A DNA stretch of 64,000 nt, taken from positions 62,001-126,000 of the forward strand of contig CACGWW010000002.1 of the NCBI GenBank assembly GCA_902576905.1. Direction: 5' to 3'. Numbering within the stretch: position 1 is the first letter of the stretch; each line of letters begins with the position of its first letter. The notes under the pieces were generated by a model. That model was given only the letters and a program-made list of their open reading frames with translations, made no database searches and was not told where the DNA came from. Shown here piece by piece: positions 2,598-21,062 of the stretch. Source of the stretch: an uncultured Alphaproteobacteria bacterium (GTDB lineage: Bacteria > Pseudomonadota > Alphaproteobacteria > Rhodobacterales > Rhodobacteraceae). The translations under genes and the position numbers were made by a program.

Positions 2598-3345
2598 TCA
2601 ATTTTTTTCAATAAGGTTCAGCCAGTTTTGGTAAATAAGCTTTGCTCCATTAATAAGTGATCGCCTATTTTTTTGTTGGTACTTAATTATCTCTTTAATA
2701 CCATTTGGGCCAATAGCGTCGTGAAAATCTTTTTTTATTTTTGGAATAGTTATCCAATTTTGAATAGTGTCATCAACAACTTCTGGGTGAAACTGGACAG
2801 AAAACGCATGATTTAAATAGGAAAGTGCTTGAATTGAACAGCTGTCAGAAGAAGCCAGCACTTTTATCTTTTCTTTAGAAAAATTGGATATTTCAGCCGA
2901 GTGACCCTGCAACACACGCATATCTTCAGAAAGGTTCCTAAATAAATTATTTGAATATACTTCCCGCTTCACAGAAATCTCCTTAAACCCGATCTCTGGA
3001 GTTTGTGATTTCACTACTAGAGCACCTAAGTCTTCACCAAGTAATTGATGTTCTAAACAAATCCCAAAAAATGGTTTTTCCAAATTCAAAACCCAATTCT
3101 TAATAAATAGCTTTTCTTTGACTAACCAAGGGTATCTATTTTCTTCCCAAACATTCATGGGACCTCCCATAACCCACAAAGCATCATATTTGTCGACAGA
3201 GGGTGGTTTTTTCAATGAAGAAAAATAAAATCGTTCAAAGGAGTGTCCATCAGATTTAAAAAATTTCTCATAGGATCCAAGATCGACCTCTGGGATATGG
3301 TTTATTACAAGAATCTTAATTTTTCTTACTTTCTTTATTTTTCAT
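2598..3345 (-). pseudogene. Class I glutamine amidotransferase (GMP-synthase-like), frameshifted near its start
   Basis: A class I glutamine amidotransferase of the small GMP-synthase-like type. The catalytic Cys is in GICLEHQ (usual GICLGHQ) and the His/Glu pair in QFHPEV. The longest open frame with a standard start begins at TTG 3215, but in-frame translation continues upstream with family-like sequence (KIKILVINHIPEVDLGSYE) and no ATG, GTG or TTG before a TGA. An ATG at 3345 is in the other frame and would join perfectly if one A were removed from the A5 run (plus-strand T5 at 3320-3324). The gene therefore looks like a ~248-residue protein split by one extra base. Its substrate is unknown. 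It converges with the cyclic-nucleotide-binding gene, eight bases apart. Confidence 0.75.
3320..3324 (-). other. Probable frameshift site (A5 in coding strand)
   Basis: Five T on the plus strand. Removing one puts the ATG at 3345 in frame with the conserved amidotransferase N-terminus. It is the first of three +1 homopolymer breaks in this window. Confidence 0.7.
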
Positions 3346-3495
3346 TCCATTTGATAATAAATAAATTATTAAAAATCAAAATTGGAGAAGTTTTATTCGT
3401 CCTAAACAACATTTTTTGAAACTCTATCGAATAGACCTAGACTATAACGACATAATATATAAAGTTATTTTAAATTTAACAGAAATTGTAAAACG

Positions 3496-4746
3496 ATGAA
3501 ATATTCTGGGTTTAAAGTATTATGGGAGGGATTAAAAGGTAACACCGGTTGGAAACCCTTGTGGAGAAACCCTGATCCCAAAAAGAATTATGACATAATA
3601 ATCGTTGGTGGAGGTGGGCACGGCTTGGCAACGGCTTATTATCTCGCAGAGAAATTTAAAATTACTAATATTGCAGTTGTTGAAAAAGGCTGGCTTGGAT
3701 CTGGAAACATAGGTAGGAACACTACAATTATAAGATCAAACTACTTATTGCCTCAAAACCAGCCTTTTTATGAATTCTCCCTAAAACTTTGGGAAAATTT
3801 AGAGCAAGAGTTAAACTACAATTCAATGGTAAGTCAAAGAGGTGTTTTAAATATTTTTCATTCAGATAGTCAACGTGATGCTTTTGTAAGGCGTGGAAAT
3901 GCGATGCTTATGTCAGGGGCCGATGCCTCACTATTAGGGGTAGACGCTCTAAAAAAGCTAGTCCCTTTTTTAGATTTTCAGAATTCAAGGTTTCCCATTA
4001 AGGGTGCTTTATGGCAGCCAAGAGGAGGAACGGTAAGGCATGATGCAGTGGCATGGGGTTATGCTAAAGAGGCAGATTCGCGTGGCGTTGATATAATAGA
4101 AAATTGTGAGACAACTAATTTTTTGATCAAAAATGGACGCTGCTATGGAGTTGAAACTACAAAAGGAGTAATTAAAAGCAAAAAGGTTGGGGTTTGTGTT
4201 GCTGGTTCATCTAGTCAAGTTATGGGAAAGATTGGAATAAACCTTCCTATAGAGAGTCATGTTTTGCAAGCATTTGTATCAGAAGGTTTGAAACCAGTAA
4301 TTCCTGGAGTAATTACTTTTGGAGCTGGACATTTTTATGTGAGCCAATCTAATAAGGGTGGATTAGTTTTTGGAGGTGACATTGATGGCTATAATTCCTA
4401 TGCACAACGCGGTAACCTACCCGTGATAGAGGATGTGTGTGAAGGCGGAGTGGCTCTAATGCCGATGATTGGGCGTGCTAGGCTGCTGAGAACTTGGGGA
4501 GGAATAATGGATATGTCTATGGACGGATCCCCAATTATTGATAAGACCAAAATAAGAAACCTATATTTCAACGGAGGATGGTGCTACGGGGGGTTCAAAG
4601 CGACTCCCGCAAGTGGTTTTTGCTATGCGCATCTTTTGGCTACGGACAAACCGTACAACGACGCCAAAGATTTTTTGTTCAATAGATTTGAAAGAGGTAG
4701 GTTAATAGACGAAAAAGGCCAAGGCAACCAACCTAACTTGCATTAA
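3496..4746 (+). CDS. soxB: Sarcosine oxidase, beta subunit
   Basis: SoxB is the flavoprotein subunit of heterotetrameric sarcosine oxidase, which oxidises the N-methyl group of sarcosine to give glycine, H2O2 and 5,10-methylene-THF. Seen here: an FAD-binding dinucleotide fold near residues 32-62 (IIIVGGGGHGLATAYYLAE), the segment GGTVRHDAVAWGYA near 177-190 whose His is the covalent FMN site in characterised enzymes, and the C-terminal FAD-binding strand (FNGGWCYGGFKATPASG). The 416-residue length is normal. The start ATG at 3496 has an N-terminus typical of the subunit. First gene of a long plus-strand operon; soxD follows 14 bases downstream. Confidence 0.95.
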   Translation: MKYSGFKVLWEGLKGNTGWKPLWRNPDPKKNYDIIIVGGGGHGLATAYYLAEKFKITNIAVVEKGWLGSGNIGRNTTIIRSNYLLPQNQPFYEFSLKLWENLEQELNYNSMVSQRGVLNIFHSDSQRDAFVRRGNAMLMSGADASLLGVDALKKLVPFLDFQNSRFPIKGALWQPRGGTVRHDAVAWGYAKEADSRGVDIIENCETTNFLIKNGRCYGVETTKGVIKSKKVGVCVAGSSSQVMGKIGINLPIESHVLQAFVSEGLKPVIPGVITFGAGHFYVSQSNKGGLVFGGDIDGYNSYAQRGNLPVIEDVCEGGVALMPMIGRARLLRTWGGIMDMSMDGSPIIDKTKIRNLYFNGGWCYGGFKATPASGFCYAHLLATDKPYNDAKDFLFNRFERGRLIDEKGQGNQPNLH

Positions 4747-4760
4747 AATGGGGGACAGAA

Positions 4761-5033
4761 ATGCTTATTGACCATCCATTACTAGGCCCTAGGGACGCAT
4801 CCGAATTCATTTATATGGGTGATGCAAAATTACTTAATAGACCAAATTGGAAGAGTCAAAATTCTAAGACTAAATTTTTAGATTATGGCTATTTACGAAA
4901 AAATCCCGCCGGGGTACATAAAGAACTTTGGTATCATGAACAAGGTGATAGATCTTGGCTTTTAGTCACAAGAAATACTGTAACACATGAAATTTTAAAA
5001 GTTGAACTTGCTCGAGACACTAAAGGAAAATAA
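4761..5033 (+). CDS. soxD: Sarcosine oxidase delta subunit, cysteine-less variant
   Basis: The position between soxB and soxA and the family pattern (NPAGVHKELWYHEQGDRSW, then TRNTVTHEIL) identify it as SoxD, the small structural subunit. Characterised SoxD binds a zinc ion through three cysteines and a histidine, beginning with a CPxCG at the N-terminus. Here the N-terminus is MLIDHPLLGPRDASEF, the later Cys position is Asp (QGDRSW), and the whole 90-residue protein has no cysteine. It is therefore a zinc-free version or belongs to a paralogous oxidase with another N-methyl substrate. A GGGGGA ribosome site precedes the ATG. Confidence 0.88.
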   Translation: MLIDHPLLGPRDASEFIYMGDAKLLNRPNWKSQNSKTKFLDYGYLRKNPAGVHKELWYHEQGDRSWLLVTRNTVTHEILKVELARDTKGK

Positions 5034-5039
5034 AAGTAA

Positions 5040-7976
5040 ATGCGAAATAGTTCACATCCAATAACAAATAAACAAAAACTATCTTTTACTTTTAATGGGA
5101 AAAAATATTTCGGCTATAGAGGTGATACGCTAGCTTCCGCACTTATTGCCAACAACGTTAAAATTGTTGGAAGATCTTTCAAATATCATCGTCCAAGAGG
5201 CATTTTTAGCGCTGGATCTGAGGAACCAAATGCATTGATAGAGCTTGGCGATGGCCCATATAAAGAACCGAATACCAGAGCTACTAACATCGAGCTATTC
5301 GATGGCCTTGAAGGCTCGAGCCAAAATTTTTTAGGGTCAGTTAATTTTGACTTCATGGCAATAAATGATTTGCTGAAAAATTTCATAGGTGCAGGTTTCT
5401 ATTACAAGACGTTTATGTGGCCTAGGAGATTTTGGGAGAAATTATATGAACCAATTATTAGAAGAGCCGCAGGGTTAGGGAAATTATCACTACAGGCGGA
5501 TCCTTCACAGTATGACAAGGGGTATCTCCATTGTGACTTTCTAATAATTGGATCTGGTATCTCGGGCTTAATGTCTGCCCTTCTATTGGCAGAAACTGGA
5601 GGTGAAGTTTTAATTGTCGAGGAAGATTTTGTTTTGGGTGGAAGACTCAATTCAGAAAGGTTAGTTATAAATGGTAATCAATCTTCAAATTGGATTCGTC
5701 AGGCAGTAAAAAAATTAAAAAGTTTAAAAAATGTTCAAATCTTAAATAGAACCACGGTCTTTGCTGCATTTGATCATGGTATATTCGCAGCCATTGAGAA
5801 AAAAACTGATCATATATTAGAAAAAAGTTCCAAACCAAGACAGATAAATTGGAAGATATATACCAAGCTCTGCATCTTAGCGTCTGGAGCTATTGAGCGC
5901 TCTATTGCATTTCCTCAAAACGATAGACCCGGTATAATGTTGGCAGGATCGGTAAGAACTTATGCGAATAGGTTTGGTGCCTACTACGGACAAAAAATTG
6001 CAATCTACACAAATAATGATGATGGTTGGAGGACAGCTGACGATCTAAAAAATATGGGACTTGAAATTAAGGCGGTAATTGACACTCGGAAAGGGATTGA
6101 AGCGCTGTCTTCAAGCATTCCATCTTACCTAGGACAAACAATTACAAAAACATATGGAAGAAAAGGTATCAAGGCAATTAAGTTAAGTTCGGGATCAAAA
6201 TTGAATGTTGATTGTCTTGCAGTATCAGGAGGATGGAGTTCTAACATTCATTTGACATGCCACAAGAGAGGCAAACCCGTTTGGGATAACAAGTTCAAGA
6301 ACTTTCTATCGGGGGGTAATGGGCAAAAAGATAAAATAATTCCTGTGGGAGCCGCGAGAGGAATATTTGAAATCCAAAATATCATTTCAGATACCAATAG
6401 AGTTATTTTATCTTTGATTAAAAAACTTAGTTTGAGCATGCCTAACCGCATAACACTAACTAGCTCGAAAGAGCAGTATAGCTGCTCACTTGATCTTGTT
6501 AGTAGTTCCGATCCCTCTAACTCCTTCATAGATCTGCAAAACGATGTTACCCAAAAAGATATAGAGTTAAGCTTCAAAGAGGGCTTTAAAAGTGTGGAAC
6601 ATTTAAAGCGATACTCCACGTTGGGTATGGCAACCGATCAGGGGAAAACATCTAATATCCTTGGGTTAGCGTCTATGGCTAAATTGAAGGGAACGAATAT
6701 TTCTGAAGCAGGCACTACTATTTTTAGACCACCATATGTACCTGTAGCTATATCGGCATTTGCAGGACGTTCTAGGGGAAAGGACTTTAGACCGACAAGG
6801 TTGACCCCATCACATAATGTAGCTTCCAAACGAAATGCAGTTTTTGTAGAGACAGGTAACTGGTTGCGAGCTCAATGGTTTCCAGAAAAGGGAGAGAAGT
6901 TTTGGCGGCAAAGTGTCGATAGAGAGGTCATACAGACGAGAAATTCAGTTGGAATTTGTGATGTAACTACACTTGGAAAAATCGATATTCAAGGAGAAGA
7001 CTGCTCAGAGTTTTTAAATTTTGTGTACACAAATGCCTTTGCTAAGTTACCTATCAATAGAGTACGTTACGGATTAATGTTAAGAGAAGATGGCGTTGCA
7101 TATGATGATGGGACTACTGCAAGGTTAGGCGAAAATCATTTTATAATGACGACTACGACTGCTAATGCCCCTTTAGTTCTTAGGAATTTAGAATTTGTTC
7201 GACAGTGCCTCCTTCCAAATCTAGATGTACATTTAATTTCTACTACAGATTCTTGGGCCCAGTATTCGGTCGCAGGACCAAACTCTCGCAGATTGTTGCA
7301 AAAGATTGTAGATAAACCAAAAGATATAACTAATGAAAATTTTCCATTCATGGCTTGTCGTGAGCTCACCATCTGTGGCGGTATTATGGCAAGACTTTTT
7401 CGAATTTCCTTCTCCGGAGAATTAGCTTATGAAATTGCAGTTCCTACACAATATGGAAATGCTTTATTTGACGCCCTTCTTTCGGAAGGCCAAGAGTTTA
7501 ATGCCATTCCTTATGGTACTGAAGCATTAGGAGTTATGCGAATAGAAAAAGGTCATGTAGCTGGTAATGAAATAAATGGTCAGACAACCGCACAGAACCT
7601 CGGCTTATCAAGGATGATATCAAAAAAAGCAGACAGCATAGGAAACATTCTATCAGAGAGAGAAGGCTTCAATAGATCTGATATCGCAACATTGTCAGGC
7701 TTTAAGCCTGTTCAACGCAACCAAAAGCTTGAAGCTGGATCACACCTGATTTCAGCAGGGAAAAAACCCACAATGGAAAATGATGAGGGTTGGTTATCTT
7801 CAGTAGCATTCTCTCCAACACTTGGTCACTACATAGCTTTAGGGTTTATTAAACGCGGTGAAACAAGAATTGGAGAAAAGGTGTGTGCTGTAAATCTACT
7901 TCAAAACAAAACTACGGAAGTAGAGATTGTTTCGCCTCACTTTATCGATCCGGAAGGGGATAAACAACGTGGCTAA
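5040..7976 (+). CDS. soxA: Sarcosine oxidase, alpha subunit
   Basis: The large subunit (978 residues, normal length) carries NAD+ and the tetrahydrofolate site. Order of parts: an N-terminal ferredoxin-like region (~15-95, with YRGDTLASALIANNV), an NAD(P)-binding fold (~165-200, IIGSGISGLMSALLLAETGG), a central pyridine-nucleotide oxidoreductase region, and a C-terminal GcvT-like aminomethyltransferase domain (~590-960, with RVRYGLMLREDGVAYDDG and SFSGELAYEIAVP) that moves the oxidised methyl to THF. It starts seven bases after soxD and its stop overlaps the start of soxG. The C1 product feeds the fhs and folD genes downstream. Confidence 0.95.
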   Translation: MRNSSHPITNKQKLSFTFNGKKYFGYRGDTLASALIANNVKIVGRSFKYHRPRGIFSAGSEEPNALIELGDGPYKEPNTRATNIELFDGLEGSSQNFLGSVNFDFMAINDLLKNFIGAGFYYKTFMWPRRFWEKLYEPIIRRAAGLGKLSLQADPSQYDKGYLHCDFLIIGSGISGLMSALLLAETGGEVLIVEEDFVLGGRLNSERLVINGNQSSNWIRQAVKKLKSLKNVQILNRTTVFAAFDHGIFAAIEKKTDHILEKSSKPRQINWKIYTKLCILASGAIERSIAFPQNDRPGIMLAGSVRTYANRFGAYYGQKIAIYTNNDDGWRTADDLKNMGLEIKAVIDTRKGIEALSSSIPSYLGQTITKTYGRKGIKAIKLSSGSKLNVDCLAVSGGWSSNIHLTCHKRGKPVWDNKFKNFLSGGNGQKDKIIPVGAARGIFEIQNIISDTNRVILSLIKKLSLSMPNRITLTSSKEQYSCSLDLVSSSDPSNSFIDLQNDVTQKDIELSFKEGFKSVEHLKRYSTLGMATDQGKTSNILGLASMAKLKGTNISEAGTTIFRPPYVPVAISAFAGRSRGKDFRPTRLTPSHNVASKRNAVFVETGNWLRAQWFPEKGEKFWRQSVDREVIQTRNSVGICDVTTLGKIDIQGEDCSEFLNFVYTNAFAKLPINRVRYGLMLREDGVAYDDGTTARLGENHFIMTTTTANAPLVLRNLEFVRQCLLPNLDVHLISTTDSWAQYSVAGPNSRRLLQKIVDKPKDITNENFPFMACRELTICGGIMARLFRISFSGELAYEIAVPTQYGNALFDALLSEGQEFNAIPYGTEALGVMRIEKGHVAGNEINGQTTAQNLGLSRMISKKADSIGNILSEREGFNRSDIATLSGFKPVQRNQKLEAGSHLISAGKKPTMENDEGWLSSVAFSPTLGHYIALGFIKRGETRIGEKVCAVNLLQNKTTEVEIVSPHFIDPEGDKQRG

Positions 7977-8529
7977 ACTAGATCTTAAAATAAAAAAGCC
8001 ACTAGATGGTTATTCCAAGGTCATAAACCAAATAAAAATTGCCGAGTATCAATTCGATAATCTCATATCACTTGCAATTCCGTTAAAAACCGAGCGAAAG
8101 TGTAAACTAAATTTCAAGAAATCCTTAGGGGAGCCAATGCCAAACATTGAAAAGTCAATAATTAATAAAAGTGGTATTCTAGGTTTTAGAATTGGCCTTG
8201 ACTTACTCTTGGTCTGTAATCCATCGCATTCGTCATTTGTAAAAAAAACTGTCCCGTCGTTAAAGCAAGCTTTTTACATAACTGACCAAACCGGAGGGTG
8301 GTGTGGGGTTAGAATTGATGGGGATAGAGTCATTGAGATGTTAGAACGAATTTGTCCTCTAAATTTATCTCAAAAAATTTTTGCTATCGGAGATGTTAAA
8401 AGAACTATTATGGATCACTTAAATGTGATTATATTTAGAGAGACAGAAAAAAAATTTATATTGTTCTCGCCAAGCTCTTCTTCTGGTTCCTTTCTTAAAT
8501 CCATTGAGATATCTTCGAGCAATATTTAA
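7969..8529 (+). CDS. soxG: Sarcosine oxidase, gamma subunit
   Basis: SoxG is recognised by FYITDQTGGWCGVRIDG followed by MLERICPLNL, the conserved core of the family, and by its place directly after soxA. I chose the GTG at 7969, which overlaps the soxA stop by eight bases and has GGAAGGGGA about nine bases upstream. The frame is open further upstream to 7927, but that would overlap soxA by 50 bases and has no ribosome site. The result is 186 residues, normal for the subunit. It is a structural partner of the SoxA folate domain; no catalytic residues are expected. Confidence 0.9.
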   Translation: MAKLDLKIKKPLDGYSKVINQIKIAEYQFDNLISLAIPLKTERKCKLNFKKSLGEPMPNIEKSIINKSGILGFRIGLDLLLVCNPSHSSFVKKTVPSLKQAFYITDQTGGWCGVRIDGDRVIEMLERICPLNLSQKIFAIGDVKRTIMDHLNVIIFRETEKKFILFSPSSSSGSFLKSIEISSSNI

Positions 8530-8545
8530 ATAAAAGGGAGATGAA

Positions 8546-10222
8546 ATGAAAGTCAAATCTGATATCGAAATTGCAAGAGAGGCACAGAAACTTCCTATAA
8601 AAGAAGTAGCAAAAAAATTAGGTATAGAAGACGAAGAATTAATCCCCTTTGGGCATGATAAAGCAAAAGTATCAGATCAATTTATTAGATCGGTAAAAAA
8701 TAATCAAAACGGTAAGCTCATTTTAGTAACAGCGGTAAATCCGACACCCGCCGGTGAAGGTAAGACTACGACTACGGTAGGCCTAGGTGATGGACTTTGT
8801 GCTTTGGGAAAGAGAGCGGCTATATGCATTCGCGAAGCATCTTTAGGACCTTGCTTTGGCATGAAAGGGGGAGCTGCTGGCGGTGGGTTAGCGCAAGTTG
8901 TGCCTATGGAAGAAATGAATTTACACTTCACTGGAGACTTTCACGCAATTACTAGCGCTCATAACCTTTTAGCAGCAATGATAGACAACCATATATATTG
9001 GGGTAACGAGCAAAATATTGACCTCCGAAGAGTTGTTTGGCGACGGGTAATGGATATGAATGATAGGGCACTTAGAGACGTAGTCACAAGCCTAGGAGGT
9101 GTCGCTAATGGATATCCAAAGCAATCAGGGTTTGATATCACTGTAGCTTCTGAAGTAATGGCAATTTTATGTTTAGCTAATGATCTTTCAGATCTCAGAA
9201 AAAGATTAGGTGAAATAATCGTTGCGTATAGAAAAGATCGAACTCCAGTTTTTTGCAAAGATATTAAAGCAGATGGCGCAATGACCGTACTCTTACAACA
9301 AGCTATGCAACCCAATATCGTTCAAACACTAGAAAATAATCCTGCATTTGTCCATGGAGGACCTTTTGCTAATATTGCCCATGGTTGCAATTCTGTTATC
9401 GCTACAAAAACCGCTCTAAAGATAGCTAACTATGTAGTAACCGAAGCGGGTTTTGGAGCCGACCTCGGTGCCGAAAAATTTGTTAATATAAAGTGTAGGA
9501 AAGCTGGGATAAAGCCCGACGCTGCTGTAATCGTTGCCACAGTTAGGTCGATGAAAATGAACGGTGGCATAGTTTCCAAAAATGATCTGAGTAGGGAAAA
9601 TATCGAAGCTGTGCAACGAGGTTGTGCAAACCTTGGAAGACATATTGAAAATGTAAAATCATTTGGAATACCAGTCGTTGTTGCAATAAACCACTTTGTT
9701 AGCGATACAAATGCTGAGATTGAGGCGCTCAGACGGTATGTAGCTGATAAGGGTACTGAAGCTTTTGTCTGTAAGCATTGGGCAGAAGGTTCTACCGGAA
9801 TCCTTCCTCTCGCGAATAAGGTTGTTGAGATTGCAGAAAACAAAAGTAAATTTGTTTACACATACAAAGACGATTTGTCTCTGATTAAAAAAATCGAAAG
9901 AGTCGCTAAAAAAATATATAGAGCTGATGAAGTTCTTGCGAACAAGTCAATTAGGGATCAGCTACAGTTATGGGAAAATGATGGTTATGGTGATCTCCCT
10001 ATTTGTATGGCGAAAACCCAATATAGCTTTACTACAGATCCTAACAGAAGGGGTGCACCAAACGGGCACTCAATACCAATAAGAGAAGTAAGACTGTCGG
10101 CAGGGGCTGGTTTCATTGTTGTTATTTGTGGAGAAGTTATGACTATGCCTGGACTTCCCAAAGTTCCAAGCGCGGAGGCCATAATGCTCAATAAAAAAGG
10201 CGACGTTGAGGGCTTATTTTAA
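8546..10222 (+). CDS. fhs: Formate-tetrahydrofolate ligase
   Basis: ATP-dependent ligase joining formate to THF, or run in reverse to release formate and ATP from 10-formyl-THF. The 558 residues include the P-loop region [14 protein letters not shown] (~residues 67-80), the glycine-rich [11 protein letters not shown], and the folate-site stretch [17 protein letters not shown]. An AAGGGAGA sits just before the ATG. It follows soxG by 16 bases and precedes folD by 16. In this setting it most likely completes disposal of the methylene-THF made by sarcosine oxidase (methylene to formyl through FolD, then formate plus ATP), though the direction is an inference. Confidence 0.97.
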
Positions 10223-10238
10223 AAGGTCGAGGAAAATA

Positions 10239-11132
10239 ATGAATGAAATTATTGACGGGAAAAAGTTTTCACAAACACTACGCGCCAAAGTAAAAAATTA
10301 TGTGGATGTCATAAAGGAAAAACATGGGGTAACTCCAGGTTTAGCAGTAATACTTGTTGGAGAGGACCCCGCGAGCCAGGTATATGTGAGAAATAAAGGA
10401 AAGCAAACCTTAGAAGTTGGCATGAATTCATATGAGCATAAGCTTGATGCATCGACTTCTTCCGATGTATTACTCAACCTCATAGAAAAATTAAATGACG
10501 ACGCGAATGTTCATGGGATTTTATGTCAACTACCTTTACCCGACCACTTGAATGAAAAAGAGGTGATTAATTCTATCGATCCAAAAAAAGATGTGGATGG
10601 ATTTCATATATCAAATGTTGGTCTTCTAAATACGGGTCAAAAGTCAATGATTCCCTGTACACCATTAGGGTGTTTATTATTACTTAAAGACAGGCTAGGA
10701 GACCTTTCAGGTAAAAATGCAGTGGTCGTAGGAAGATCAAATATAGTTGGTAAGCCGATGGCTAATTTACTTTTACAAGAAAATTGTACTGTAACCATAG
10801 CTCACTCTCGAACAGAGAATATAGAAACTATATGTGCGCAAGCTGATATTATCGTGGCTGCGGTAGGGAGGCCTGAGATGATTAAAAAAGAATGGGTAAA
10901 GCCTGGGGCTACAGTCATAGATGTTGGTATAAACCGAGTAACAAAAAATATTGATGGACACGAAAAAACTACTTTGGTGGGTGACGTTTGTTTTAATGAT
11001 ATGGCTGGTTTAGTAGCCGGCGTTACACCTGTACCCGGTGGAGTAGGACCAATGACTATAGCTTGTCTTTTAGCAAATACTGTTACTGCATGCTATAGAT
11101 CACAAGACCTTTATGACCCAGAGTTTACTTAA
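10239..11132 (+). CDS. folD: Methylene-THF dehydrogenase / methenyl-THF cyclohydrolase
   Basis: Bifunctional FolD interconverts 5,10-methylene-THF and 10-formyl-THF with NADP+. Motifs seen are the catalytic Lys region VYVRNKGKQ, the dinucleotide/THF signature [14 protein letters not shown] and the C-terminal [19 protein letters not shown] chose ATG 10239 (GAGGAAAATA upstream, MNEIIDGK start as in relatives) over the longer frame from 10206 that overlaps fhs. This gives 297 residues, normal length. Together with fhs it links the C1 unit from demethylation to formate or to purine and formyl donors. Confidence 0.96.
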
Positions 11133-11193
11133 CGATTATTTTTTGGAGTTTTTTTGTTAATTGTTACTTTCGTGATAACATTTAACGATTATT
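11129..11193. repeat. 12-base direct repeat flanking an inverted repeat upstream of nrtS
   Basis: TTAACGATTATT occurs at 11129-11140 (covering the folD stop) and again at 11182-11193. Between them an imperfect hairpin pairs 11156-11166 with 11176-11186 (10 of 11 pairs, nine-base loop). Its 3' arm runs into the second direct repeat. There is no T-run behind it, so it is not a standard terminator. It could be an operator for the genes that follow. Confidence 0.6.
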
Positions 11194-11209
11194 CGTATGA
11201 GCCCAACTT

Positions 11210-11464
11210 TTGAAAAACATAACAAACCACGATAGCTTTTTAAAGCTTGCCCTTCGAAAAAGTGTAATAAGAAGAGCTTTAAGGATTGCTCTAATCGTTG
11301 GTTGTATACTTGCTCTAATAAACCATGGTGACAGAATAATTTTTCAGGATATGAAATCAGTCGATTGGTTTAAAATTCTTTTAACTTTCTGCGTGCCGTA
11401 CTGTGTCTCCACTATTTCATCGGTTTTGGCAATCAAACGAGAAATTGAGATAAATGAGTCCTAA
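11210..11464 (+). CDS. nrtS: NrtS-like small nitrate/nitrite transporter
   Basis: An 84-residue membrane protein with two hydrophobic segments. The second contains KILLTFCVPYCVSTISSV, the hallmark of the NrtS family, preceded by RRALRIALIVGCILALINHGD. NrtS proteins have been described as small nitrate/nitrite transporters; I infer the role from family resemblance only. The start is weak: TTG at 11210 without a good ribosome site. An ATG at 11195 lies in another frame and would join this one (MSPT-LKNIT) if one T of the T4 run at 11207-11210 were absent, so the true N-terminus may differ. Its place between folD and the SDR gene is unexplained. Confidence 0.75.
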   Translation: MKNITNHDSFLKLALRKSVIRRALRIALIVGCILALINHGDRIIFQDMKSVDWFKILLTFCVPYCVSTISSVLAIKREIEINES

Positions 11465-11506
11465 AAAAAAAAGTTTTCTTTATAATTATTTCCTATAGAG
11501 GTTTTT

Positions 11507-12361
11507 ATGAAAAAAAAGATATTGCTTACAGGCGCAGGAGGTAGATTGGGTTCTTATCTTAGAGAGCCACTTTCAAACATCTGCAGTACACTTATTTCGA
11601 CTGACATAAAAAAAGATATTGGAAAACTCAATGAAAATGAAAAATATTTTTCAGCCGATTTATCAAATTTTGATCAGATATGTGACCTAACAAAAGACGT
11701 TTCGCTTATCTGCCATTTTGGAGCTTTAGTAGACGAAGTGCCATTTAACGATATGCTAGGTGCTAATTTTATTGGCTCCTATAACATTTGGGAAGCAGCT
11801 CGCCAAAATAAGTGTACTAGGGTAGTTTATGCAAGTTCTATTCATGCAGTCGGCATGTATAAAAGAACAAAAACATTAAGGCCAAAGACTGCACATCGAG
11901 CTGATGGTTTTTATGGGCTATCAAAGTGTTTCACTGAAAATTTGGCCCGGATGTATTACGATAAATGTGGTGTTGAAGCGGTGTGCTTAAGAATTGCTAC
12001 ATGTTCACCAGTAACAACGCAAAGAAGTTTATCGAGTTGGCTTTCTTATGGTGACTTGGTTCAATTGGTTATGAAAGCAATTGATACTTCACATACCGGT
12101 TATTCGGTTATTTATGGAGTGTCAGACAATGATCGTTCTAACTTGAGCAACATAGAAGCAGGGCATATCGGTTTCAAACCCAAAGATAATGCTGAGATTT
12201 ACGCAAATAAAATCTTCGCAGATGACTTAACAGACGAATTAGCAGACGAAGGGAACAAATTGCATGGTGGTCCTTTTGCATCCACTGATCTAGGAGTTAG
12301 CGCGATGGATAAAATGAAAATAGTTTATGCGCATAAAGGGGATTTACCAGATGAAAGATAA
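11507..12361 (+). CDS. NAD-dependent epimerase/dehydratase-type SDR, uronate dehydrogenase-like
   Basis: An extended short-chain dehydrogenase of 284 residues. The NAD-binding motif is TGAGGRLGSYL at residues 8-18, the active-site Ser is in ASSIHAVG and the Tyr/Lys pair in YGLSK (~residue 140). The HAVGMY segment and overall length resemble uronate (hexuronate) dehydrogenases, which oxidise galacturonate or glucuronate to the aldarolactone. The best reading is an NAD-dependent polyol or sugar-acid oxidoreductase. A GAGG precedes the ATG, and its stop overlaps the ThDP enzyme start, so the two are translationally coupled and probably act in one route. Confidence 0.8.
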   Translation: MKKKILLTGAGGRLGSYLREPLSNICSTLISTDIKKDIGKLNENEKYFSADLSNFDQICDLTKDVSLICHFGALVDEVPFNDMLGANFIGSYNIWEAARQNKCTRVVYASSIHAVGMYKRTKTLRPKTAHRADGFYGLSKCFTENLARMYYDKCGVEAVCLRIATCSPVTTQRSLSSWLSYGDLVQLVMKAIDTSHTGYSVIYGVSDNDRSNLSNIEAGHIGFKPKDNAEIYANKIFADDLTDELADEGNKLHGGPFASTDLGVSAMDKMKIVYAHKGDLPDER

Positions 12362-14096
12362 TAATATGCTTCGAGGAGGACAGCTTTTAGCGAAATCTTT
12401 TAAAGATAAAGGAATAGAACATGTGTTTACACTCGCAGGTGGGTTTTGTAACCCTGCACTTGAGGGTTTCATGAATCATCAAATACCGGTGATAAATTGC
12501 CCGCATGAACAAATTGCGGGCCATTTGGCAGACGGCCATACGAGACTTTCAAGGAAACCTTCTGTTTGTCTAGTTGGACCAGAGGGTTTTGCGAATGCGA
12601 TACCTGCCATGATGGAGGCTTGGGGGGAACGATCTCCTGTAATTTTTGTTACAGGCTCATCCACACTGAAAAAGCAAGGCGCTGGAGGATTTAAGGAAAT
12701 AGATGACGTTTCTATCGCAAGACCACTTACAAAATACAGTGCATCAATAACAGATGGAAATAGAATTCCTGAGTTCGTGGATAGAGCGTGGAGGATAGCG
12801 ACAAGCGGTTATCCAGGACCGGTTCATCTAAGTATGCCAGTAGACATAATGTTTTCTTCCTTTGATGAAAGTTGCTCAGATATGGAGCGTCCATTTACTA
12901 GAAAAGAACCAAAGACTTACAAAGCATGGCCTGAACCCTCAGCACTAAATGAGATAATTGACATTATAAAGTCTTCAAAAAAACCCATAATTATCGGTGG
13001 ACATGGGATATGGTGGTCAAAAAATGAAGACCTGTTAAAGCAAGTTGGTGATGAAATTAAAATTCCAATTTTTAATGTGCCATATCACCAAAAATTATTA
13101 AATGAAAATTGCAAGGCCTTTCTAGGGCTTGCCGATGTGCATCAGTACCATCCTTCAAAGTTTGCTTTCGATGAATCTGATTGCATAATAATGGTAGGAG
13201 GTCGCTTGGATAATCAAATGAATTTCGGCAATCCACCATTATTTCCTGCAAGTTCGAGGCTAATATGTGTCAACGGTTCGCACGAAGAAATAGAATTTAA
13301 TAGAGCGGCTGACCATTTGCTTTTGAGTGATCCTGGAGCTTTTTTTGAAGGTCTACTTAAGTCACATAACAGGGATAAATTCTCTTTGGAAAAAGATTGG
13401 TTAGCTAAAAATATTGGGGAAAGAAAAAAATGGGTGACTGCGTCGCTAAACAATCTTGTTGAAACAACGAATTATCCAGCATGGAGTGGCGGAAAAATTC
13501 ACCCTTTAGAGCTTTCTCTGTCGGTACAAAAGTGTATGACAGACGAAGATATCTTAGTTTTTGATGGAGGTAATACACACTTTTGGTCAGAAATTGCTGT
13601 TAATATAATGGCCTCTAATGGATTAGCTCTTTCCCAAATAATGCACCCTGGTTCCTATTCAATGCTGGGCGTTGGAGTGTCATTTGCACTGTCGGCAAAG
13701 CGGCTCAATAAGGAGAAGACGATTGTATTAATTTCTGGAGATGGTGCTTTCCTTAGTGGGGGTTTATCCATTGAGACAGCCTTTCAAGAAAACCTGCCGA
13801 TTGTTATAATTATCGATAACAATGGTGGTCTAGATTGTATATCGCAACAACAGGAAAGATTGTTCAAGGATGGTTCTCATTTTGCAACAGATTTCAGAGA
13901 TATACCATTTCATGGAATGTTTGAGGGAATGGGGGGTTATGGAGAGCTGGTAACTCACAAAGATGAGATTCAAGGAGCTGTAAGGCGAGCAATAGACAGC
14001 GGGAAACCTGCTTGTGTTAACGTAAAAACAAAAGGCGTTATCAGCCCAATTGTTGCGGCTACAAGCGATAAAAGGGATAAGGCTTCTATAGAATAA
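12351..14096 (+). CDS. ThDP-dependent enzyme of the acetolactate synthase-like superfamily
   Basis: A 581-residue thiamine diphosphate enzyme with the three-domain layout of acetolactate synthase and glyoxylate carboligase. The catalytic Glu is in CPHEQIAGHLADG (~residue 55) and the ThDP/Mg motif is GDGAFLSGG ... IIDNNGG (~465-495). The substrate cannot be read from sequence. It lacks an obvious regulatory-subunit partner nearby, which argues against a biosynthetic acetolactate synthase. I chose ATG 12351, overlapping the upstream SDR by 11 bases; ATG 12366 is possible. It sits two bases before the HIUase-like gene. Candidate activities are decarboxylation, carboligation or C-C cleavage of a small oxoacid. 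Confidence 0.82.
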   Translation: MKDNNMLRGGQLLAKSFKDKGIEHVFTLAGGFCNPALEGFMNHQIPVINCPHEQIAGHLADGHTRLSRKPSVCLVGPEGFANAIPAMMEAWGERSPVIFVTGSSTLKKQGAGGFKEIDDVSIARPLTKYSASITDGNRIPEFVDRAWRIATSGYPGPVHLSMPVDIMFSSFDESCSDMERPFTRKEPKTYKAWPEPSALNEIIDIIKSSKKPIIIGGHGIWWSKNEDLLKQVGDEIKIPIFNVPYHQKLLNENCKAFLGLADVHQYHPSKFAFDESDCIIMVGGRLDNQMNFGNPPLFPASSRLICVNGSHEEIEFNRAADHLLLSDPGAFFEGLLKSHNRDKFSLEKDWLAKNIGERKKWVTASLNNLVETTNYPAWSGGKIHPLELSLSVQKCMTDEDILVFDGGNTHFWSEIAVNIMASNGLALSQIMHPGSYSMLGVGVSFALSAKRLNKEKTIVLISGDGAFLSGGLSIETAFQENLPIVIIIDNNGGLDCISQQQERLFKDGSHFATDFRDIPFHGMFEGMGGYGELVTHKDEIQGAVRRAIDSGKPACVNVKTKGVISPIVAATSDKRDKASIE

Positions 14097-14098
14097 TA

Positions 14099-14441
14099 AT
14101 GCACTCAATAAGTACACATGTATTAAATTCCGAAAACGGTACTCATGTCGCTGGTCTAACAGTTACCCTTACACATATTGGTCCAGATGGGGCAAAAAAG
14201 ACAATGTTTTCAGAAAAAACTGATGCGGGGGGGACGCATTTTAGAGAACTTTGACTTTCCCCTTAAAAGCAATGAAATTTTTGAGATTGAATTTAAACTA
14301 TCAGATATTCATATGAAGAAAAAAGGTATATACTGTAGAGATATAATTTTCAGGGTATCTTTCAGTTCAGAAAATGAAAAATTCCATATTCCCATTATCG
14401 TATCTCAAAACGGCGCTTCTACTTGGTGGTCGGGAGAATAA
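14099..14441 (+). pseudogene. Hydroxyisourate hydrolase / transthyretin-like protein, +1 frameshift
   Basis: Two overlapping frames together give one ~113-residue transthyretin-like protein. The first frame from ATG 14099 reads STHVLNSENG, matching the THVLD start of 5-hydroxyisourate hydrolase, and runs to a stop at ~14270. The second frame carries the rest: GGRILENFDFP with the conserved Arg, the CRDIIFRVSF strand and FHIPIIVS with the second His. Dropping one G from the G7 run at 14227-14233 joins them. The C-terminus is STWWSGE where true hydrolases end in a YRGS-type tetrad, so it may not act on hydroxyisourate. Urate pathway genes are absent nearby. It lies two bases from genes on both sides. 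Confidence 0.72.
14227..14233 (+). other. Probable frameshift site (G7)
   Basis: A run of seven G. With six, the two halves of the transthyretin-like protein read through as TDAGGRIL. It is the second of three +1 homopolymer breaks. Confidence 0.75.
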
Positions 14442-14443
14442 AA

Positions 14444-15571
14444 ATGAATATTCAAAATAAGCTGAATTTCTCTAGAAGGATCAGAAGAACGCCTTTTACT
14501 ACCTCCGTCGAAAAGCATGGAGTAACGGGATTTTCCGTTGTGAACCATACACTACTTCCTAAGTCATTTCAAAACTCAATTGAAGATGATTATTTGCACC
14601 TACAAAAATATGCTCAAATTTGGGACGTTGGCTGTCAAAGGCAAGTTGAAATTAAAGGTAAAGACGCACTCAAACTAATTGAGTTAATGACGCCTAGATC
14701 AATATCAGAACTTCAACCAGGAAAATGTCTTTATATTCCCTTGACCGATGAAAATGGTGGTATAATCAATGATCCTATTCTTATCAAAATAAGTGCCGAT
14801 CATTTCTATCTATCCGTTGCAGACTCAGATGTGTTATTGTGGGCTAGAGGGCTAGCTATTGGTTTTGGCTTAAACGTAAGAATAAGGGAGCCTGATGTGT
14901 GGCCTTTGGCAGTACAAGGACCAAAAGCTGCCGATGTTTTGGCCAAAGTTTTTGGTGAGCGGATATATTCAATTAAAAAATTCAATTTCGACTATTTTTC
15001 ACTTGATGGCTCTTCTCAACTAATAGCCAAAACCGGTTACTCTAGAATTGGTGGTTTTGAAATATATCTGTCTCGACCAGAACTCGGTTCATCTCTATGG
15101 GAAACAATTTTGGAAGCTGGTAGATCAGAAAACATAAGGCCAGGATCTCCAAACATAATAGATAGAGTTGAAGCAGGATTATTATCCTTTGGCAATGAAA
15201 TGACCGTGGAGAACACACCACTGGAATGTAACATGGATAAGTTCTTGGATATAAATAAAAAAGCAGATTATATTGGGAAAAAAGTTCTCCAGCGGCAGAT
15301 TAGATATGGCATTAAAAGACGTATAAGAGGTGTTATTTATGAAGGGCCTAAACTTCCAACAATATCAAGACCTTTACAAGTTTTTGATATAGATAAAAGA
15401 ACTATAGTCGGAAGCTTAACTTCAGGGGCATTCTCGCCACATTTTAAGAGTAATATTGGGGTTGGGATGATCAAATATGGATACTGGAATAATAACAAAA
15501 AAATATTAGTTAATATCGCTGATCAGGAGTTTAGAGAAGGATTAATCAAAGACCTTCCTTTAGTTCAATGA
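14444..15571 (+). CDS. GcvT-family THF-dependent demethylase, DmdA-like
   Basis: A 375-residue GcvT-fold protein resembling DMSP demethylase DmdA along its length. Seen: RRTPFTTSVEKHG and VVNHTLLP near the start, YAQIWDVGCQRQVEIKG, SVADSDVLLWARGLA, PLAVQGPKA and RVEAGLLSFGNEMT. DmdA moves a methyl from DMSP to THF. As I recall the marine enzyme it reads GWSKQGGYE where this one reads GYSRIGGFE, so substrate contacts may differ, and I call it DmdA-like. In a carnitine/betaine/sarcosine operon a related onium substrate such as DMSP or glycine betaine is plausible. The start ATG 14444 follows GGGAGAA by a few bases; the frame upstream overlaps the preceding gene. Confidence 0.82.
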   Translation: MNIQNKLNFSRRIRRTPFTTSVEKHGVTGFSVVNHTLLPKSFQNSIEDDYLHLQKYAQIWDVGCQRQVEIKGKDALKLIELMTPRSISELQPGKCLYIPLTDENGGIINDPILIKISADHFYLSVADSDVLLWARGLAIGFGLNVRIREPDVWPLAVQGPKAADVLAKVFGERIYSIKKFNFDYFSLDGSSQLIAKTGYSRIGGFEIYLSRPELGSSLWETILEAGRSENIRPGSPNIIDRVEAGLLSFGNEMTVENTPLECNMDKFLDINKKADYIGKKVLQRQIRYGIKRRIRGVIYEGPKLPTISRPLQVFDIDKRTIVGSLTSGAFSPHFKSNIGVGMIKYGYWNNNKKILVNIADQEFREGLIKDLPLVQ

Positions 15572-15578
15572 GGTAAGA

Positions 15579-16484
15579 ATGGCTCTGGCTATTAATAAAA
15601 ATGTATTTATTACCTGTGCTGTGACTGGTTCTGGAAGTTCACAAGATAAAAGTCGAGAAGTACCAAGGTCGCCAAAAGAAATTGCAGATAGTGCAATTGA
15701 AGCCGCTAAAGCTGGAGCGGCTATTGTACATTGTCATGTAAGAGATCCCGATACCGGCAGACCAAGTCGTAGGGTTGATCTCTATGAAGAAGTAACAAAA
15801 AGGATTAGAGACTCCGAAACGGACGTCGTTTTGAACTTAACTACCGGAATGGGAGGCGATATTTATCTTGGTCTCAACGCTGAAAACCCACTGCCACTTA
15901 AAGAACCAGAAACAGATATGATAGGGGCGTCGGAAAGAATAATGCATCTTGTTACATGTAAGCCAGAAATCTGCACTTTAGATTGTGGTACAATGAATTT
16001 TGCTGAGGATAACTATGTAATGACCAACACGCCGGGAATGCTAATGGCAATGGCTTCAAAGATCACCAATTTAGGTATTCTTCCTGAGATTGAAGTTTTT
16101 GATACAGGACATCTGTGGCTGGCAAAAAAACTTGTGAACGAAGGTCTGATAAGAGATCCCGTTCTTTTACAGCTTTGTATGGGTATACCCTGGGGCGCAC
16201 CAAATGATATAAATACGTTCATGTCTTTAGTGAATAATATTCCAAAAGACTGGACTTGGTCTGCATTTTCCATAGGGCAATTTCAGATCCCTTATGTTGC
16301 AATGGCCACTCTGGCAGGAGGAAATGTCAGAGTGGGGTTGGAAGATAATATTTGGTTGGAAAAAGGACGGTTAGCAAAGAATTACCAATTGGTTGAAAAA
16401 GCTGTAAATGTCATCGAAAACTCTGGCAGTAAGGTCATGTCACCGAAAGAAGTTCGTGACAAGCTTCGTTTGAAAAAACAATAA
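15579..16484 (+). CDS. Beta-keto acid cleavage enzyme (BKACE), probable 3-dehydrocarnitine cleavage
   Basis: A 301-residue BKACE (DUF849) TIM-barrel enzyme. The zinc ligands are visible in VHCHVRDPDTG (~residues 49-59) and the late Glu in VGLEDN. Members condense a beta-keto acid with acetyl-CoA to give acetoacetate and a new CoA ester. The next gene is a carnitine dehydrogenase fused to a thioesterase, so the likely substrate is 3-dehydrocarnitine, giving betainyl-CoA plus acetoacetate, as described for the carnitine pathway of Sinorhizobium. Family is firm, substrate rests on context. It follows the DmdA-like gene by seven bases and precedes its partner by two. Confidence 0.9.
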   Translation: MALAINKNVFITCAVTGSGSSQDKSREVPRSPKEIADSAIEAAKAGAAIVHCHVRDPDTGRPSRRVDLYEEVTKRIRDSETDVVLNLTTGMGGDIYLGLNAENPLPLKEPETDMIGASERIMHLVTCKPEICTLDCGTMNFAEDNYVMTNTPGMLMAMASKITNLGILPEIEVFDTGHLWLAKKLVNEGLIRDPVLLQLCMGIPWGAPNDINTFMSLVNNIPKDWTWSAFSIGQFQIPYVAMATLAGGNVRVGLEDNIWLEKGRLAKNYQLVEKAVNVIENSGSKVMSPKEVRDKLRLKKQ

Positions 16485-16486
16485 TT

Positions 16487-17953
16487 ATGAAAAATTTAAG
16501 TGTGACATGTATAGGAGCTGGCGTAATAGGGTCTGGTTGGGCTGCCCGCTTATTAGTTAATGGAATAAATGTAAACGTTTTTGATAAGCGCCCAGAAAGC
16601 TACAATAGAACACGATTGTCCGTTGAAAGGGCTAAAAAATATTTCTCTCAATTAACAAAGGCCCCTTTAAGAGAAATGGGCAGTCTTACTTTTGACAAGT
16701 CTTTGGAAGATGCTCTGAAAACGTCCACTTATATAATTGAAAGTCTTCCGGAAAATTTACAATTGAAGCATGAGCTTTATAAAGAAATCGAGCACATTTC
16801 AAGTAATTCAATTATTTTGTCATCTACTTCAGGTTTCAAGCCCACTGACCTTCAAAAGTATATGAAAAATCCTCAAAGTTTGCTCGTTACACACCCTTTC
16901 AACCCAGTGTATCTGATGCCTTTGGTTGAGCTTGTTCCAGGCCAAGAAAGAGATCAGAAAATTGTTGATGATGTGCACCATTTATTGGAATACGTCGGAA
17001 TGGTACCGATAATAATTAAAAAAGAAATAGATGCCTTTGTCGCGGACAGAATGCTAGAGGCGATGTGGCGTGAAGCATTGTGGCTTATAAAAGATGATAT
17101 TTGCACTACTAAGGAGCTAGACGATATTATCACGTCTAGCTTTGGAATACGATTTGCTCAAATGGGAATGTTTGAAAGTTACCGTATTGCTGGAGGAGAT
17201 AAAGGCATGCGTCATTTCCTTGATCAATTTGGTCCTGCACTAAAATGGCCTTGGTCCAGATTGACAGATGTACCAGAGTTTAATTCTGATTTAATAGATA
17301 AAATTTGTTCTCAATCAGATGCTCAATCAGATATGTATAGCATCTCCGAGTTAGAAGATATTAGGGACAGAAACTTGGTTGAATTACAGAAAGCTCTTCG
17401 CAACAACCGTTGGGGATCTGGACGAACATTAGCGAGCTATGAAAAAGATCTTTTCGATGAACAGTCAAAAGAGGCAGAAAAAGCTAGTGGAAAAATAAGT
17501 AGTGACCTGCTAATTACCTATACAAAAACGATACCCCCTGAATGGGCAGATTATAATGGTCATATGACAGAATATCGCTATCTCAACTGTTTTGGCGATG
17601 CATCAGATGCTGTGATGCTCCATATAGGCTGTGATAAAGCCTATATCGAGGCTGGCAATTCCTATTTCACCGTTGAGACAAATATTAGGCACCTAAACGA
17701 GCTTAAGGTAGGGCAAGAAGTATATATAGAAACTAAAGTTTTAAAAGGAACTGAGAAAAAACTGCATGTTTTTCATATGTTGAGAAATAAAGAAGGAGAA
17801 CTTTTTGCTACCGGTGAACATCTTCTTCTACACGTTTCTTTAAAAACTAGAAAAACTTGTCCAGCAAGTAAACCTCTTATCGACAAATTGATAGAACTTC
17901 AAAAGCAGCATCAAGAAACAAGTGTTCCATCAGAGCCGAAAATAATTGTTTAA
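16487..17953 (+). CDS. lcdH: L-carnitine dehydrogenase fused to betainyl-CoA thioesterase
   Basis: Residues 1-~315 are a 3-hydroxyacyl-CoA dehydrogenase-type domain: NAD motif GAGVIGSGWAARLL, IESLPENLQLK, and HPFNPVYLMPLVELVPG with the catalytic His. Residues ~340-470 are a hot-dog thioesterase domain (PEWADYNGHMTEYRYL, then VETNIRHLNELKVGQEV). The pairing matches carnitine 3-dehydrogenase plus betainyl-CoA thioesterase, separate proteins in some bacteria. With the upstream BKACE it forms L-carnitine to 3-dehydrocarnitine to betainyl-CoA to glycine betaine. It is the last gene of the plus-strand operon and converges on the AhpD-like gene 28 bases away. Confidence 0.9.
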   Translation: MKNLSVTCIGAGVIGSGWAARLLVNGINVNVFDKRPESYNRTRLSVERAKKYFSQLTKAPLREMGSLTFDKSLEDALKTSTYIIESLPENLQLKHELYKEIEHISSNSIILSSTSGFKPTDLQKYMKNPQSLLVTHPFNPVYLMPLVELVPGQERDQKIVDDVHHLLEYVGMVPIIIKKEIDAFVADRMLEAMWREALWLIKDDICTTKELDDIITSSFGIRFAQMGMFESYRIAGGDKGMRHFLDQFGPALKWPWSRLTDVPEFNSDLIDKICSQSDAQSDMYSISELEDIRDRNLVELQKALRNNRWGSGRTLASYEKDLFDEQSKEAEKASGKISSDLLITYTKTIPPEWADYNGHMTEYRYLNCFGDASDAVMLHIGCDKAYIEAGNSYFTVETNIRHLNELKVGQEVYIETKVLKGTEKKLHVFHMLRNKEGELFATGEHLLLHVSLKTRKTCPASKPLIDKLIELQKQHQETSVPSEPKIIV

Positions 17954-17981: not shown

Positions 17982-18551
17982 TTATCGGCCCATGTTATAA
18001 AATTCCTCATTAGGTAACATTGAAAATGTGTTAGCTAGTCGATTACTCATAGCAAAGAAAGACGCAACTGAGGCTATTCGCCACGCGTCTTCAATATCAA
18101 AACCAAAACTTTCTAAAATTTTAAAATCAGAGTCATTTATGTTCTGCGACTCCTTTGCTACTTTCACGGCAAAATCAAGCATAGCACGTTGTCTCTCAGT
18201 TATTTTACTCTTTTTATAGTTTATAGCTATTTGGTCTGAAATATTTTTATCTTTGGATCTTATTCTCAAAACCGCTCCATGAGAAACTACACAATAAAGA
18301 CAATCATTTTGTGCGGAGGTAGCCACAACGATCATCTCCAATTCGGCTTTCGTTATATTACACTCTGTCTCCATAATAGCATCATAGTAAGTACAAAAAC
18401 CTCTAAACTCATCAGGTTTTCTTGCCATTATCATAAAGACATTTGGTACAAAGCCTGTCTTTTCTTGCACTGACTGAATCTTCGTTTTCACGTCCTCTGG
18501 TAAATCCTCCAAATTTGGTATCGACGATCTGCTAATAGGTCTATTGTCCAT
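17982..18551 (-). CDS. AhpD-like peroxidase-related protein (carboxymuconolactone decarboxylase family)
   Basis: The 189 residues form an all-helical CMD/AhpD fold. The redox motif is CLYCVVSHG (~residues 84-92), with the two Cys and the downstream His seen in peroxidase-related members. The N-terminal KTGFVPNVFMIMARKPD is typical of the uncharacterised peroxidase-related subfamily. Its start overlaps the liuC-like hydratase stop by 11 bases, so it is the last gene of the urea/hydratase transcript. A role in removing peroxides is inferred; the fold is also used by decarboxylases, but the CxxC favours redox chemistry. Confidence 0.85.
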   Translation of the reverse strand: MDNRPISRSSIPNLEDLPEDVKTKIQSVQEKTGFVPNVFMIMARKPDEFRGFCTYYDAIMETECNITKAELEMIVVATSAQNDCLYCVVSHGAVLRIRSKDKNISDQIAINYKKSKITERQRAMLDFAVKVAKESQNINDSDFKILESFGFDIEDAWRIASVASFFAMSNRLANTFSMLPNEEFYNMGR

Positions 18552-19961: not shown

Positions 19962-19973
19962 TTCAAAACTCCT

Positions 19974-20600: not shown

Positions 20601-20614
20601 GATACTTCAGATAA

Positions 20615-21061: not shown

Positions 21062-21062
21062 A

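Follow-up and report, generated by a model that had tools for sequence, protein, structure and literature searches.

A ThDP enzyme, HIUase-like protein, and DmdA-like putative demethylase gene cassette between predicted one-carbon and carnitine genes in an uncultured Rhodobacteraceae bacterium

The window analyzed here is a stretch of 64,000 nucleotides from an uncultured bacterium of the Rhodobacteraceae (assembly GCA_902576905.1, contig CACGWW010000002.1; G000:C2:62001-126000), in an assembly of 1.69 Mb that is 77% complete. At positions 3496-17953 it carries a run of plus-strand genes in which open reading frames (ORFs) and family scans identify soxB, soxD, soxA, soxG, fhs, folD, dmdL, bkace, and cdhTE, just where an earlier reading made from the letters alone (the original prediction) had placed them. 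The tight spacing described there also holds, with junctions of -35 to +77 bp across the run (hiuH taken as 14101-14442), but four genes between folD and dmdL, included in these figures, had been skipped: an 84-amino-acid (aa) ORF and genes for a short-chain dehydrogenase/reductase (SDR), a thiamine diphosphate (ThDP) enzyme (tpp), and a 5-hydroxyisourate hydrolase (HIUase)/transthyretin-like protein (hiuH). None of 15 terminator-like sites falls on the plus strand within a gap of the run, and from its layout a single transcript over the whole run is possible. The subject of this work is the run and, within it, tpp-hiuH-dmdL.

Conservation of the tpp-hiuH-dmdL cassette

Six aligned DmdL sequences served as the query in a scan of genome contigs for relatives. 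Of 147 matches, the best 80 were kept, with L086-L101 (72-99% identity) counted as belonging to the genus and the other 64 loci as outside it. Among these best matches, tpp (>50% identity, same strand, ending ≤700 bp upstream of dmdL, in loci with >2.5 kb upstream) adjoins dmdL in 55 of 57 testable loci outside the genus, and hiuH does so in 56 of 57. A gene for an FMN-dependent 2-hydroxyacid dehydrogenase starts within 3.8 kb of dmdL in 43 of 53 testable outside loci, and genes for MttB (21 loci), a family-5 solute-binding protein (22), and a PanE-like protein (17) also occur among the 64. De novo ORF clustering of the loci returns the same core. Across 244 genomes drawn evenly from the order, DmdA-like matches (E ≤ 1e-60) were found in 165, tpp (E ≤ 1e-150) in 4, and dmdL matches of >420 bits in 3, each next to tpp. 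The genes tpp-hiuH-dmdL form a cassette that is conserved on its own, and a literature search by cassette terms found no description of it.

The original prediction had called for the same gene set to be sought in related genomes, and the set is kept in congener loci but was not seen whole in any of the 64 outside loci. A dmdL match at ≥73% identity is present in 17 of 22 genus genomes, own genome included; the five without a match are 62-77% complete. In the 16 congener loci (L031-L044, L047, and L048), bkace and cdhTE come directly after dmdL in 15, and L048 stops inside dmdL. In one of them, L044 (G008), sox-fhs-folD and the 84-aa ORF stand apart from sdr-tpp-hiuH-dmdL-bkace-cdhTE, with about 7.7 kb in between; the insert holds a CoA-transferase III gene, together with ABC transporter and EamA-like genes recognized by eye only. 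Outside the genus, bkace lies ≤2.5 kb downstream of dmdL in 1 of 56 testable loci (L102, from a Paracoccaceae metagenome-assembled genome [MAG]), and soxA, fhs, and folD were found in 0 of the 64 loci.

Two further observations concern the dmdL loci. In four of them (L120:11141-12316 and three others), a gene for a pyridoxal phosphate enzyme of Cys/Met metabolism stands directly 3' of dmdL, a possible hint of sulfur chemistry. Loci L088 and L144 lie on contigs labelled as Flavobacteriales MAGs; L088 matches the window at 98% identity despite that label, which makes binning contamination likely.

DmdL and its partner enzymes

The dmdL gene (14444-15571, plus strand; alternative start 14423) encodes a DmdA-like protein of the GcvT family that scores 467.4 bits on the NCBIfam DMSP (dimethylsulfoniopropionate) demethylase model PRK12486, over the cut-off of 410, and is therefore prone to misannotation. 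Its nearest solved structure is DmdA (3TFH), and the GcvT-family tetrahydrofolate (THF)-site residues are kept. The own genome holds a second, DmdA-side copy at C6, which at 499.6 bits on the DmdA model lies above both the cut-off and DmdL.

To place DmdL, a tree was built after distant and wrong-frame rows had been removed. It sets 56 DmdL rows on one side of a branch and 20 DmdA rows on the other, the latter being 3TFH, the own G000:C6 copy, a congener copy, the second copy of G022, and 16 family members. The branch has 99/93 support and was recovered in 100% of 200 bootstrap trees; five other rows were ungrouped. By this tree, DmdL is the sister group of DmdA and lies outside it. The residue comparison agrees on one position: where 3TFH has Tyr32, all 82 DmdL rows have Val, and all 25 usable DmdA-like rows have Tyr. 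Three loci with stops in the translated stretch (L019, L021, and L026) and a partial one (L101) were left out of the DmdL residue alignment. Because L105 and G022's L045 are one and the same contig, the 82 DmdL and the 57 HIUase-like rows each include one duplicated locus.

A second position was tried and rejected. The accessible text of PMC7487153 describes Trp W171 of DmdA as key for DMSP, and we equate this residue with W197 of 3TFH by an offset of our own. Of the 82 DmdL rows, 81 have Tyr at this position and one has Phe, which seemed telling beside 3TFH and the C6 copy; Tyr is also found in 16 of 25 usable DmdA-like rows, and 15 of 18 usable Rhodobacteraceae-family rows carry it, so the change from Trp197 to Tyr is no proof against DMSP use by DmdL.

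Upstream of dmdL, tpp (12327-14096, plus strand; PF02776/PF00205/PF02775) encodes the ThDP enzyme of the cassette core. Among the 25 of 51 NCBIfam models listed, its product is over the cut-off of none, with a best score of 248.2 bits against 587. Its nearest PDB chains are 2-hydroxyacyl-CoA lyase/synthase (HACL/HACS) and benzaldehyde lyase.

The gene between them, hiuH (about 14099-14441, plus strand), was recognized from its sequence, and its intact relatives match PF00576. A frameshift close to a stretch of seven G interrupts it in the window assembly, and because the frame is open over 113 aa in all 15 congener loci with both tpp and dmdL, the shift is possibly a sequencing or assembly error. 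The protein shares with 5-hydroxyisourate hydrolase the transthyretin fold family and three residues, His14, Arg49, and His105 of PucM (2h0e), which are kept in 57 of 57 HIUase-like rows, but has Trp in place of PucM Tyr118, likewise in 57 of 57. These PucM residues have catalytic meaning, and HIUase ends in a C-terminal YRGS motif. The scores of two intact relatives, 52.9 and 63.8 bits, are under the HIUase equivalog cut-off of 87.45. Judged by equivalog score and C-terminal Tyr, the cassette protein would fall outside the HIUases. A purine-breakdown role for the HIUase-like and ThDP pair, considered in view of the urease accessory genes that begin at 19353 in the window, was set aside provisionally; ureE, ureF, and ureG queries match 0 of the 64 outside loci.

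Carnitine genes, one-carbon genes, and candidate demethylases elsewhere in the genome

Carnitine is converted to glycine betaine by carnitine 3-dehydrogenase (CDH), the beta-keto acid cleavage enzyme BKACE, and betainyl-CoA thioesterase, a route known from the enzymology of Sinorhizobium meliloti and Pseudomonas. Downstream of dmdL, bkace (15579-16484, plus strand; PF05853, 321.6 bits) is followed by cdhTE (16487-17953, plus strand), whose product is a CDH fused to a thioesterase (CDH-TE). It has the expected 3HCDH and 4HBT domains and exceeds the carnitine 3-dehydrogenase equivalog cut-off (NF005716, 644.6 bits against 592). The window BKACE is 68%, 65%, 63%, and 68% identical to those of G022, G024, G025, and L102, all of which lie near a CDH-TE. 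The step from carnitine to betaine named in the original prediction thus has the support of family membership. In four of four loci examined (L074, L075, L077, and L102), relatives of bkace and cdhTE lie near a regulator of DJ-1/PfpI-AraC architecture, which we take to be that of CdhR. In L102 this regulator lies on the opposite strand between dmdL and bkace, so the two gene sets there look like separate units. A second CDH and BKACE locus is found in the own genome (L071, G000:C27), as also at L072 (G019:C8) and L073 (G014:C8); its CDH is under both carnitine cut-offs, and its neighbors include an acyl-CoA dehydrogenase and a CoA ligase of ADP-forming type.

At the other end of the run lies the one-carbon (C1) module. 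Here soxB (3496-4746; sarcosine oxidase beta type, TIGR01373, 654.5 bits against a cut-off of 529.45) and soxA (5040-7976; with a folate-binding GCV_T domain, TIGR01372, 1222.7 bits against 1164) are over the sarcosine oxidase subfamily cut-offs, while soxD (4761-5033; PF04267; TIGR01374, 80.3 bits against 116.5) and the soxG-like gene (about 7978-8529; TIGR01375, 42 bits against 143.95) are under them, the latter without a match in the Pfam scan. They are followed by fhs for formate-THF ligase (8546-10222; PF01268; NF010030, 904.1 bits against 652) and folD (10206-11132; NF010785, 475.7 bits against 396), all on the plus strand. Sarcosine-type oxidation coupled to FolD and Fhs, also part of the original prediction, is therefore supported by family for the A and B subunits and not for D and G. 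A second soxBDAG set lies elsewhere in the own genome, and its soxA (C3) scores 1157.7 bits, just under the alpha-subunit cut-off. Methylenetetrahydrofolate reductase (MTHFR; PF02219) is over its cut-off in 0 of the 22 genus genomes, most of them incomplete, with weak matches in 2, which leaves oxidation of methyl-THF to formate unproven.

The DmdA-like protein had been called the only demethylase candidate in the window. This was looked at for the window genes scanned, but the genome holds others outside the window: four MttB-family proteins (PF06253, over cut-off), one corrinoid protein (PF02607 match, B12-binding domains), and two dimethylglycine dehydrogenase (DMGDH)-like proteins next to one MttB. 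A homocysteine S-methyltransferase is also present. By family, the MttB and corrinoid proteins are candidates for the step from betaine to dimethylglycine (DMG) and the DMGDH-like proteins for that from DMG to sarcosine, and in view of these candidates we rejected the idea that nothing else in the genome could demethylate betaine. The accessible text of PMC12478193 shows betaine demethylation by MtgBCD in Ruegeria and notes that SAR116, SAR324, and SUP05 have mtgC homologues.

The remaining genes of the region can be stated briefly. The 84-aa ORF (11210-11464, plus strand) is kept in congener loci and had no match in the Pfam scan; it may be NrtS-like. The SDR/epimerase family gene (11507-12361, plus strand; PF01370) has Azf as its closest NCBIfam model, at 111.3 of 400 bits and below cut-off. 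Upstream of soxB lies a class I glutamine amidotransferase gene (2598-3215, minus strand; PF00117). Before it, the stretch 841-2589 encodes an alpha/beta hydrolase with a fused nucleotide cyclase domain and, after that, a cyclic-nucleotide-binding protein. Just 5' of the window (L084:7502-11375, G000:C2) lie genes for both Rubisco subunits, large and small, phosphoribulokinase, and class II fructose-bisphosphate aldolase. Convergent with cdhTE, and retained in congener loci, is a minus-strand group at 17982-21112 with carboxymuconolactone decarboxylase and enoyl-CoA hydratase family genes, ureG, ureF, and ureE. PADLOC found nothing.

A three-module model, its rivals, and known systems

We propose that the run probably comprises three modules, arranged head to tail and perhaps co-transcribed, in which the cassette is separate and betaine would be demethylated by enzymes encoded elsewhere. 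CDH-TE and BKACE would take carnitine through 3-dehydrocarnitine to betainyl-CoA and acetoacetate, and on to glycine betaine. SoxBDAG would oxidize an N-methyl amino acid, most likely sarcosine, to give methylene-THF (CH2-THF), from which FolD and Fhs would produce formate and ATP. In the cassette, an entry oxidoreductase (for most other lineages the FMN 2-hydroxyacid dehydrogenase, and in the window perhaps the SDR), followed by the ThDP and HIUase-like enzymes, would convert a carboxylic acid, and DmdL would move a methyl group from the onium product to THF. The passage from betaine through DMG to sarcosine would more likely fall to the MttB/corrinoid and DMGDH-type proteins encoded elsewhere. 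What the data show directly is which genes are present, their order and conservation, the DmdL tree, and the family scores; we infer the substrates in all three modules and the order of steps in the cassette.

What the cassette acts on can be suggested only tentatively. The cassette may be an undescribed catabolic pathway for a methylated marine onium osmolyte, in which the compound demethylated by DmdL would be other than DMSP or glycine betaine; 4-dimethylsulfonio-2-hydroxybutyrate is one example among the 2-hydroxy sulfonium or ammonium acids that could serve. The FMN 2-hydroxyacid dehydrogenase gene usually stands at the head of the cassette, and genes for a family-5 ABC transporter and MttB sometimes go with it. 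If this is true, DmdL would be a new THF-dependent demethylase at present counted as a DMSP demethylase, and in the window genus the entry enzyme would have been swapped and carnitine-type 3-hydroxyacid enzymes added. The cassette is the part of the region most worth following.

Several observations weigh against a three-module model with a separate cassette. The carnitine module and the cassette adjoin in every one of the 15 congener loci long enough to show it; the gaps in the window are 7 bp (dmdL/bkace) and 2 bp (bkace/cdhTE), and the two sets are side by side in L102 as well, so a functional tie of DmdL to carnitine or betaine is possible. The cassette itself is not invariant: G185 (L166) carries tpp-hiuH but no dmdL within the 20 kb read, L149 pairs hiuH with dmdL but lacks a tpp next to them, and in L137 tpp is further away. 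Keeping the best matches also makes for a sample that favors close relatives. An earlier tree, which included a GcvT outgroup and the wrong-frame rows L179_A and L190_A and from which 27 near-duplicate rows had been left out, did not keep DmdL as one group (3 changes needed, 0% of bootstrap trees); a still earlier one was spoiled by the distant or wrong-frame rows L025, L029, and L030. The CDH-TE locus of G023 (L076) has no close BKACE alongside, and the lack of an MTHFR over cut-off in the genus weakens the Mtg route too.

The original prediction read the whole run as a single pathway leading from carnitine to glycine and formate, with DmdL as a THF-dependent glycine betaine demethylase. The adjacency kept in the congener loci, the adjoining sets of L102, and the GcvT-family chemistry with its retained THF-site residues speak for it, but we consider it unlikely: outside the genus the conserved partners of dmdL are the ThDP and HIUase-like genes and not bkace, tpp and hiuH are given no role, the genome has other demethylase candidates, and no MTHFR is over cut-off in the genus. 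As dmdL belongs to a separately conserved cassette, DmdL as the bridge from carnitine to sarcosine is not supported, nor is DmdL as a betaine demethylase. A different doubt attaches to SoxBDAG, which could be an N-methylglutamate dehydrogenase in a C1 module for methylamine use. The accessible text of PMC3160333 states the same ambiguity for two SAR11 soxBDAG sets, and the own genome has two sets as well; set against this are the soxA scores, where the window copy passes the sarcosine oxidase cut-off that the C3 copy just misses, and the fact that no N-methylglutamate synthase genes were recognized among the window genes scanned. This assignment, compatible with the carnitine and cassette modules proposed here, has a lesser but real chance of being correct.

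Two other rivals keep DMSP as the substrate. That DmdL is a second DMSP demethylase, with the cassette making DMSP from a longer precursor, would fit its score over the NCBIfam DmdA cut-off and its nearest structure, yet it seems quite improbable given the position of DmdL outside DmdA, the Val at Tyr32, and the higher-scoring DmdA-side copy at C6. Gonyol, 5-dimethylsulfonio-3-hydroxypentanoate, is a sulfonium analogue of carnitine, and by this structural analogy CDH, BKACE, and the thioesterase might turn it into DMSP for DmdL to demethylate, leaving carnitine to the second CDH and BKACE locus. In its favor, the accessible texts state that bacteria consume gonyol, some of them giving off methanethiol from it (PMC7221440), and that its catabolism is unknown (PMC12911362). 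We regard this as very improbable, since it is the window CDH that exceeds the carnitine cut-off and the second-locus CDH that exceeds neither, relatives of bkace and cdhTE carry the CdhR-like regulator, and DmdL again lies outside DmdA.

The three-module model can be set beside known systems. With DmdA (3TFH), DmdL shares the GcvT family and a score over the DmdA cut-off, but it differs in its sister-group position (99/93), in Val for Tyr32, and in its ThDP and HIUase-like partners. The carnitine module resembles the known route to glycine betaine in its thioesterase-fused CDH beside BKACE, with relatives near a CdhR-like regulator; unlike that route, the window has no recognized CdhR-like regulator beside the genes, bkace follows dmdL by 7 bp, and the own genome carries a second CDH and BKACE locus. 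An Arctic SAR11 carnitine/betaine island (PMC12421898) likewise unites CDH, BKACE, and thioesterase genes in a marine alphaproteobacterium, although, unlike the window, its accessible description names no DmdA-like or ThDP gene. The MttB-family and corrinoid proteins of the own genome recall MtgBCD as presented in the accessible part of PMC12478193, but the genes lie outside the window and the genus lacks an MTHFR over cut-off. Finally, the accessible text of PMC3160333 gives soxB2D2A2G2 of SAR11 as SAR11_1281-1284, followed by fhs (1285) and a putative glutamine amidotransferase (1286), and leaves undecided which soxBDAG set is sarcosine oxidase and which is N-methylglutamate dehydrogenase. 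The window shares soxBDAG followed by fhs, with a glutamine amidotransferase gene near (2598-10222), but adds folD and then the cassette and carnitine genes, and SAR11 has metF, whereas no MTHFR is over cut-off in the window genus.

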